Positions 47,382-49,163 of a DNA stretch of 64,000 nucleotides are shown here, in pieces. Position 1 is the first letter of the stretch; every line of letters begins with the position of its first letter. Source of the stretch: Chthonomonadales bacterium (GTDB lineage: Bacteria > Armatimonadota > Chthonomonadetes > Chthonomonadales > CAJBBX01); the NCBI GenBank assembly GCA_027459625.1, contig DAIDHP010000004.1, positions 124,001-188,000 of the forward strand, written 5' to 3'. Made by a program: the position numbers and the translations under genes. The notes under the pieces are model-generated. The model was not told where the DNA came from. It searched no databases and worked only from the letters and a program-made list of their open reading frames with translations.

Positions 47382-47972
47382 ATGTCGATTCAAATCCCCA
47401 AACCGCCAGGATTGGAGTCTCTTAAAGCGCTTGGCATTCATCCGAGGAATGTCAACAAGGAACATGAGGAAAGCCTGAGTTTCCTCGACCGTATTGCATT
47501 GAAAATCACGGTTGTAGTTGGAACCATGGGCTTTTTCCTCTTGATTGCCTTATGGACCTTCATATGGACCGGTTACAATATGATCGCGTCTCTGTTTCCC
47601 AAACTCGGGATAAGACCGTTCGATCCGTTCCCCGCATTTGTCGCTTATCTCTTGATTAGCAATGTGGTCCAAATACTACTAATGCCGCTCATCATGGTGG
47701 GGCAGAATCTTCAAGGCAAGCACGCCGAACTTCGCGCTGAAAACGATTATCAAATCAATTTAAAGGCGGAGAAGGAGATTAACATGATCATCAGCCATTT
47801 GGAGTATCAAAACTCATTGCTGTTGATGATCATCGAGAACCAAGGCGTCAATCATGAGGAGGCTCTTAAGATGATCACAAAGAATGAAGCTGAAATTCGC
47901 AAAATTCTAAGTTCCCAGGAGAATCAGGAACCGGCGAACATAACATCAGATATGAAAAGCGCGGAAAGCTAA
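47382..47972 (+). CDS. DUF1003 membrane protein
   Basis: The 196-residue protein matches DUF1003. It has two membrane helices (about 42-62, VVGTMGFFLLIALWTFIW, and about 85-108, FVAYLLISNVVQILLMPLIM), then the conserved cytoplasmic LRAENDYQINLKAEKEI segment and a helical tail. DUF1003 function is unknown. AGGAGGAAGG precedes the ATG. Its last 27 bases overlap the convergent gene on the other strand. Confidence 0.82.
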   Translation: MSIQIPKPPGLESLKALGIHPRNVNKEHEESLSFLDRIALKITVVVGTMGFFLLIALWTFIWTGYNMIASLFPKLGIRPFDPFPAFVAYLLISNVVQILLMPLIMVGQNLQGKHAELRAENDYQINLKAEKEINMIISHLEYQNSLLLMIIENQGVNHEEALKMITKNEAEIRKILSSQENQEPANITSDMKSAES

Positions 47973-48836
47973 GATTATCAGCAATACCATGATTACCGCA
48001 TACAGCATTGCGAAAGCTTCCGATCTTGAATAGCGGAAGCTTTTCCAATGCAACCCTATCATCACCACCGCCATGGGCACCAAAGCCGGAAGATTTACAT
48101 TGAAGAATATCGTGAAACCCATATAGGCGCAGAGGGTGATGATCAACGCCTTCACCGTTAACGAATACGTCCGCTGATTGGGCGAAAACCTGCAAATCGC
48201 CGCCACGAAGAAGGCGATAAAAAGATAATCCGCAAATCCGATGGATGGAAGCTGTTGAAAGATAGGAAGTTTCGGTGCGGTTTTCACCAAGAGGGTGTGC
48301 CTTACCGCGTGAGCGACAGGGGATGGACTTTGAAGCGCTTTTTGCACCGGTCCGCCTAGCAACACTGTCCAAATATCCACGAAAGCCAACGCGATGGAGA
48401 CCGGCAAGATCAGATTCACGTCGCTTAATAGATACGAAAGCGCACCGCCGATGCTTGCAGCGAACCAAATCAACAATAGGTTGGTTACGCCTGGAAGAAA
48501 GCTCTCCACCGCTATTACAGGCAAGAACCCAATTCTTGACAGCGCCACCCAAATGGCTCCCAAAATCGAATATAACATGAACTTGATGGCTATGGATCGA
48601 TTATGTGAGCCTTTTACGCCCACGAGTGTGGCGAACCAAAGAGTCAATGCCATGGAGCATAGTGCGAGAAGAGGTGCGAGAACAATGATCGCTCGTCCGT
48701 GCAGGAACCAAGTTAATACTCTCCACATTGCCAAATAGGAGATGAGAATAATTGGAATGTAAGAGCGGGGGGCGTCTGGTAAAGTGTTTGTTTGACCTTC
48801 GCCTGAACCATCCGATGAAGTGTTTTGTGATTCCAT
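47946..48836 (-). CDS. Polytopic membrane protein, candidate presenilin/SPP-like aspartyl protease
   Basis: The 296-residue protein has about nine hydrophobic segments and no signal peptide. Three features match intramembrane aspartyl proteases. An aspartate lies in a membrane helix (FVDIW, D154). A GxxD aspartate lies in the next helix (GFAD, D203, like GLGD). A PAL tripeptide (250-252) stands 47 residues later, close to the spacing in presenilin (48) and signal peptide peptidase. The first aspartate is preceded by V instead of the usual Y or F. Activity is therefore a hypothesis; an unrelated transporter-like protein remains possible. GAGGAG precedes the ATG. It is transcribed from a promoter that overlaps the divergent promoter of the ANTAR regulator. 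Confidence 0.5.
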   Translation of the reverse strand: MESQNTSSDGSGEGQTNTLPDAPRSYIPIILISYLAMWRVLTWFLHGRAIIVLAPLLALCSMALTLWFATLVGVKGSHNRSIAIKFMLYSILGAIWVALSRIGFLPVIAVESFLPGVTNLLLIWFAASIGGALSYLLSDVNLILPVSIALAFVDIWTVLLGGPVQKALQSPSPVAHAVRHTLLVKTAPKLPIFQQLPSIGFADYLFIAFFVAAICRFSPNQRTYSLTVKALIITLCAYMGFTIFFNVNLPALVPMAVVMIGLHWKSFRYSRSEAFAMLYAVIMVLLIILAFRAFHI

Positions 48837-48857
48837 GAACTCCTCTGGAAATTCGCT

Positions 48858-48887
48858 TTGACAAAAGATACTGTTTTATTATATAAT
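48858..48887 (+). promoter_or_regulatory. Sigma-70-type promoter toward the ANTAR regulator
   Basis: TTGACA (48858-48863) and TATAAT (48882-48887) have an 18-base spacer. It predicts a start near 48894 and a leader of about 270 bases before the regulator's ATG. Confidence 0.7.
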
Positions 48888-48907
48888 AGGAATGAAACTA
48901 ACGTCAA
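48878..48907 (-). promoter_or_regulatory. Overlapping sigma-70-type promoter toward the presenilin-like gene
   Basis: On the minus strand TTGACG (48907-48902) and TATAAT (48883-48878) have an 18-base spacer. The -10 box overlaps the plus-strand -10 box within the palindrome ATTATATAAT, so polymerase can occupy only one direction at a time. Confidence 0.65.
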
Positions 48908-49163
48908 ACATAGGAATGATAGTTCATTCACATATCAACTCCTTAACGCATAGCCACAAAACGCGATGTATCAATGAGGATATTTTGCGATCCCTCCGGT
49001 CGGTTCCACTTCTTCGGGTTGAATCCTAAATCTCAATGACGCAGTGTGAGGCGTCTTGATTGTCTCAATCAGCCAAATTCACCAACGTTCCGGAGGCTCT
49101 ATATTCATACATGGAGCGATGAGGCTTCACCGTCCAAGTTGATCATTACAGGAGGGCTAGGAA
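48888..49163 (+). other. Long leader of the ANTAR regulator gene
   Basis: The stretch of 276 bases has no gene. Small hairpins can be drawn: GACGC/GCGTC around an eight-base purine-rich loop, and GATTG/CAATC directly after it. ANTAR proteins bind paired hexaloop hairpins in leaders, but a clear pair of such loops was not found here. An AGGAGGG ribosome site is at the end. Confidence 0.4.

Follow-up and report, generated by a model that had tools for sequence, protein, structure and literature searches.

Intramembrane aspartyl proteases of the SPP/presenilin type have been described as eukaryotic and archaeal enzymes. The window, by which we mean the whole 64,000-nucleotide stretch of a Chthonomonadales genome analysed here, raises the question of whether bacteria also have such an enzyme: it contains a gene for a polytopic membrane protein that an initial annotation, made from the sequence, proposed as a presenilin/SPP-like candidate. 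Our literature search, with most subscription papers outside its reach, found no study of a bacterial member. We consider with good confidence that the 296-residue product belongs to the SPP/presenilin superfamily as a bacterial intramembrane protease of the GxGD diaspartyl type, an assignment of enzyme class from sequence comparisons in which catalysis is a prediction. On the best reading, it represents a new subfamily that spans the Armatimonadota and for which current profile libraries have no model. The archaeal model protein that has been crystallised has no real PAL motif; a bacterial family that does have one, and that occurs in single copy across its phylum, could serve as a simple one-protein model of SPP and presenilin. 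Such a family would also bear on the age of the enzyme class and on the clearance of signal peptides in bacteria without SppA.

The gene, its neighbours and its spread in the phylum

The source genome (4.55 Mb, 97% complete) carries one copy of the gene, on a contig of 233 kb. Comparison with a congener of 92% identity gave a dN/dS of about 0.14, the mark of purifying selection, which indicates a real gene under constraint. Its coordinates, expression signals and motif codons are collected in Table 1.

Table 1. Features of the protease-like gene, in window coordinates (conservation refers to the orthologue family)
Feature	Position	Strand	Basis or remark
CDS, candidate SPP/presenilin-like GxGD intramembrane aspartyl protease, 296 aa	47946..48836	-	ORF, ATG start
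Shine-Dalgarno-like AGAGGAG, strong, 5' of CDS	48840..48846	-	sequence
Sigma-70-like promoter TTGACG-18-TATAAT, 11/12	48878..48907	-	about 41 nt before start codon; consensus match only
D154 codon, putative first catalytic Asp (AFVDIW), predicted helix 5	48375..48377	-	118/118 distinct cores
V158 (D+4) codon	48363..48365	-	93% conserved; strongly coupled to P250 of PAL
GFAD 200-203, GxGD-type, putative second catalytic Asp D203, predicted helix 6	48228..48239	-	G200, D203 118/118
R216-F217 codons, RF at +13/+14 from GxGD Asp	48186..48191	-	K/R 93%, F 72%; as in SPPL2A (GFGDIIVPGLLIAYCRRFD)
PAL 250-252, outer end of predicted helix 8	48081..48089	-	P 114/118, A 79/118, L 110/118
E273 codon, family-specific near-invariant Glu, inner loop before extra C-terminal helix	48018..48020	-	98%

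On the left, the gene is flanked by genes for a DUF1003 protein and a universal stress protein, and on the right, in divergent orientation, by those for an ANTAR response regulator and a GAF-HWE histidine kinase. Two opposed sigma-70-like promoters overlap at 48858-48907 and have a palindromic TATAAT in common; the plus-strand one (TTGACA-18-TATAAT, 12/12) points to the ANTAR regulator and the minus-strand one (Table 1) to the protease-like gene. The leader of about 270 nt between the plus-strand promoter and the ANTAR regulator gene holds a terminator-like hairpin (49038-49055). Because ANTAR proteins act by antitermination on leaders with such hairpins, autoregulation of the ANTAR regulator through this leader is possible by analogy.

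The overlapping promoters might suggest that the product, although of the same enzyme class, is a dedicated signalling protease, working by regulated intramembrane proteolysis with the divergent kinase and ANTAR regulator. Indeed, about 24 of 76 loci, from several families, have an ANTAR regulator and/or kinase in divergent orientation to the gene. Most other loci, however, lack this linkage and have leuS (directly downstream in 18), a glycosyltransferase gene (upstream in the Fimbriimonas-type group) or other genes as neighbours, and the near-universal distribution described below looks like that of a housekeeping gene. We therefore regard a dedicated signalling protease as rather unlikely; the variability of the neighbours points to a general function and not to one tied to a single pathway.

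A search with the single sequence detected an orthologue in 53 of 61 relatives, and a search with a profile of the core found the gene in 268 of 291 Armatimonadota genomes, nearly always in one copy. Among good genomes (completeness at least 90%, contamination at most 5%), 186 of 194 (96%) have it. The few genomes without it include two of 1.5 Mb and one genus of family f16. Viral contigs and plasmids were searched for relatives of the family, and none were found there.

Several orthologues differ in length or integrity. Frames of 500-680 residues in some genomes appear to be mostly N-terminal over-extensions. Very long copies in family f17 (L170:2541-5390 (-), L171:1059-5177 (+) and L172:3424-6555 (-)) have, in order, a CarboxypepD_reg-like N-terminal domain, a protease-like core with both aspartates and PAL, and a large soluble C-terminal part that resembles, by eye, an alpha/beta hydrolase without its nucleophile. 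Orthologues in family f32 (L150:898-2478 (-) and L153:1078-2589 (+)) carry a long soluble extension past the last helix, for which Pfam gave no convincing match. The copy in a genome that matches Chthonomonas calidirosea T49 (L065:4799-5808 (-)) is broken into two reading frames ahead of PAL, either by a sequencing error or because the gene has decayed; the T49 genome was obtained from 454 and Sanger reads (PMC4959169).

Conservation of the putative catalytic motifs

The motif positions proposed in the initial annotation, namely an intramembrane aspartate (D154), a GFAD motif with a second aspartate (D203) and PAL at residues 250-252, are all found in the 296-residue frame, with spacings of 49 residues between the aspartates and 47 from D203 to P250, as it had stated. 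By family-averaged hydropathy, D154 sits in a hydrophobic helix. The same annotation had named orthologues lacking either aspartate or PAL as the observation that would speak against it. None of the 118 distinct orthologue cores lacks either aspartate, and the proline and leucine of PAL are kept in nearly all of them (Table 1). D154, G200 and D203 are invariant in all 134 orthologues, and P145 and E273 share this invariance in a set of 50/50 orthologues. The conservation of these motifs is far beyond chance, and at D154, G200, D203 and PAL it matches what would be expected for a catalytic site.

Two positions within the motifs are variable. The residue before D154 changes freely (VD, FD, AD, ID, MD and YD), and YD occurs in 2 of 118 cores. 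The VD of the window protein, taken in the initial annotation as a sign of divergence, is thus present as described, and the lack of YD is a trait of the family. The third position of GxGD is Ala in 60 cores (GxAD) and Gly in 58 (exact GxGD); the window protein belongs to the GxAD group and has no second Gly in this motif.

These observations also bear on the reading that the family has the same fold but is not, or is no longer, a protease, acting for instance as a membrane chaperone, channel or scaffold in which the two aspartates are structural or ion-binding. The replacement of GxGD by GxAD in half of the cores and the variable partners next to the orthologues would suit such a protein. In pseudo-enzymes, however, a catalytic residue is usually missing from some lineages, whereas here both aspartates are present in every one of the 118 distinct cores and PAL is nearly as constant. 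We consider a non-protease improbable and favour an active GxGD-type protease, in which the GxAD members, including the window protein, may be slow or differently tuned. The latter suggestion is made by analogy, because G219A in the archaeal PSH, which matches the second Gly of GxGD, slows catalysis (PMC2947513).

Remote homology, covariation and predicted topology

The window protein alone had no match in Pfam or the PDB, and its matches in NCBIfam were at chance level. The family as a whole was more informative. When 134 members were compared with 24,736 Pfam models, Presenilin matched 14 members and Peptidase_A22B matched 9, and these two are among the three models matched most often. One orthologue (L144) exceeds the gathering cut-off of Peptidase_A22B (PF04258) with 26.6 vs 23.3 bits (E 5.6e-6, or about 7.5e-4 when multiplied by the 134 queries), in a match that runs from the first aspartate (D1) to PAL. 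This curated cut-off is cleared by 1 of 134 relatives, the remaining A22B and Presenilin matches being weak; the Presenilin (PF01080) matches that we inspected fall at profile positions of about 330-396, and no member reaches the cut-off of that model.

A profile of the core, compared with the 177,635 sequences of the PDB, gave the C-terminal fragment (CTF) of presenilin-1 as the sole match. Its E-value improved from 0.003 with 50 sequences in the profile to 0.0013 with 134, and the alignment places GxGD on GxGD and PAL on PAL. In SPPL2A (PDB 9k92), the stretch GFGDIIVPGLLIAYCRRFD has the same register as GFADYLFIAFFVAAICRF, with Arg-Phe at the same distance.

Archaeal homologues gave no comparable signal. 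The alignment of two archaeal PSH sequences with the family by hhalign had a probability below 1%, the family HMM did not detect archaeal PSH sequences, and none of 41 Armatimonadota genomes had a PF06550 match over cut-off, although control archaea were detected. One additional archaeal PSH sequence for the profile was found, on a Natrinema plasmid. A presenilin-homologue gene on a megaplasmid of Natrinema thermotolerans (L079:1441-2526 (+)) is labelled 'hypothetical protein' and adjoins srp19 and gar1. DUF1614 (PF07758), considered as a candidate bacterial relative, was set aside, as it gave no match over cut-off in 61 genomes.

Covariation was analysed by mean-field DCA with 177 sequences (Meff 146). 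Eight of the 123 top couplings join the three motif windows, compared with a mean of 0.9 for random window triples (p ~0.0004), a figure to be read with the noise of 146 effective sequences and with motif windows picked with the motifs known. The pairs V158-P250, T157-A202, A202-A251, A202-P254, F206-L252, V158-F206 and A151-P250 are all within the top 61 couplings, and the invariant residues themselves are not the source of the signal. The couplings support contact among the three motif regions.

Taken together, the A22B match over cut-off in one orthologue, the sole PDB match to presenilin-1 and the covariation of the motifs support the presenilin/SPP-like reading of the initial annotation. 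An unrelated polytopic membrane protein, such as a transporter or acyltransferase, could carry D, GxxD and PAL by coincidence, since these motifs are short, and single members do show weak Pfam matches to several unrelated membrane families. We judge such a coincidence very improbable in view of three near-invariant sites in 118 cores, the covariation and the two database matches. A divergent type IV prepilin peptidase (A24) would share the GxGD theme and a similar size, but has next to no probability, given that the window protein has no A24 match, contains PAL, belongs to a family that matches PF01080 and PF04258 instead, and coexists with a standard Peptidase_A24 gene elsewhere in the source genome (E 4.6e-12).

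Family-averaged hydropathy predicts helices at about 26-44, 51-73, 82-103, 113-137, 143-160, 200-216, 228-247, 249-263 and 276-294, in agreement with the approximately nine membrane helices of the initial annotation. D1, the second aspartate (D2) and PAL fall in predicted helices 5, 6 and 8, so that four helices precede D1 and one follows the PAL helix. Arg and Lys are abundant in the loops that follow helices 2, 4, 6 and 8, and the D1-D2 loop is without such enrichment. From this positive-inside charge pattern, we infer a topology with the N-terminus inside, the D1 helix running outward, the D1-D2 loop outside and PAL at the outer end of helix 8. Given the known side of the membrane that each loop faces in SPP, the D1-D2 loop outside would correspond to the SPP type of membrane orientation, opposite to that of presenilin. 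SPP and presenilin have opposite membrane orientations (PMC2947513). In the long copies L170-L172, an apparently exported carboxypeptidase-regulatory-like domain precedes the core and a soluble part follows the last helix, a layout compatible with both ends lying outside in these paralogues. The AlphaFold model computed from the single sequence was too poor for reading the fold (pLDDT 49), and Foldseek with this model returned no match at E <= 0.001. Both the motif context and the predicted orientation appear to resemble SPP more closely than presenilin, with a shifted helix layout.

Proposed role and comparison with known systems

In the mechanism that we propose, D154 and D203 would occupy neighbouring helices, linked by a loop on the outer side, and would jointly activate a water molecule for the intramembrane cleavage of a peptide bond. 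The PAL segment, where helix 8 reaches the outer face, would pack against both aspartates, as in SPP and presenilin. The SPP orientation would suit substrates with the N-terminus inside, for example residual signal peptides and type II anchors. We tentatively suggest, with somewhat less than even confidence, that the enzyme clears signal-peptide remnants and other single-span or type II membrane segments.

SppA (S49) was not found in the source genome, and across the phylum it was detected over cut-off in only 110 of 291 Armatimonadota genomes by a search that 10 of 14 control genomes pass; both results leave room for such a role without proving it. It was likewise not found in most listed genomes of the source order. 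A strict replacement of SppA by the gene is not supported as a rule, because most of the approximately 110 genomes with SppA also have the gene, and one genome (G003) has neither over cut-off. A broader scenario would be that Armatimonadota possess an ancestral, near-universal aspartyl SPP of the eukaryotic/archaeal type with its own helix arrangement, which clears signal peptides in the many SppA-less lineages; half of them would use a natural GxAD site, equivalent to the Gly-to-Ala exchange that makes PSH slower. We regard this full scenario as possible but doubtful.

Among known systems, the SPP and SPP-like proteases (PF04258 Peptidase_A22B, MEROPS A22B) have D1, GxGD and PAL in the same order as the bacterial family. 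The GxGD...A...RF context of SPPL2A is that of the family, the D1-D2 loop is predicted outside as in SPP, and one orthologue exceeds the Pfam cut-off. The family differs from SPP in having VD, FD, ID and others instead of YD and GxAD in half of its members. In the classical layout of nine TM helices, D1 is in TM6, D2 in TM7 and PAL at TM9, whereas the bacterial proteins are predicted to have one helix fewer ahead of D1 and an additional one beyond the PAL helix, the additional one being preceded by a near-invariant Glu.

Presenilin (PF01080) is the sole PDB match of the family profile, with GxGD and PAL aligned; unlike the bacterial family, it is the catalytic subunit of gamma-secretase and has a cleaved loop and partner subunits (PMC2947513). 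Bacterial SppA (S49) shares with the family the proposed role in signal peptide degradation, but is an unrelated serine protease. Type IV prepilin peptidase (A24, PF01478) is also a GxGD diaspartyl membrane protease, but lacks PAL and is encoded by a separate gene in the source genome.

The archaeal PSH/MCMJR1 (PF06550; PDB 4HYC) is, like the bacterial protein, prokaryotic, encoded by a single gene and about 300 residues long; in both, a loop connects the neighbouring helices that carry D1 and GxGD, Val stands at D+4, and the aspartates are a comparable distance apart (58 residues vs 49 in the bacterial protein). It has no significant sequence match to the bacterial family. Predictors place the aspartates of MCMJR1 in TM5/6 of eight helices, and it shows PPL in place of a clear PAL (PMC2947513); in this motif, the bacterial family is thus nearer to the eukaryotic enzymes.
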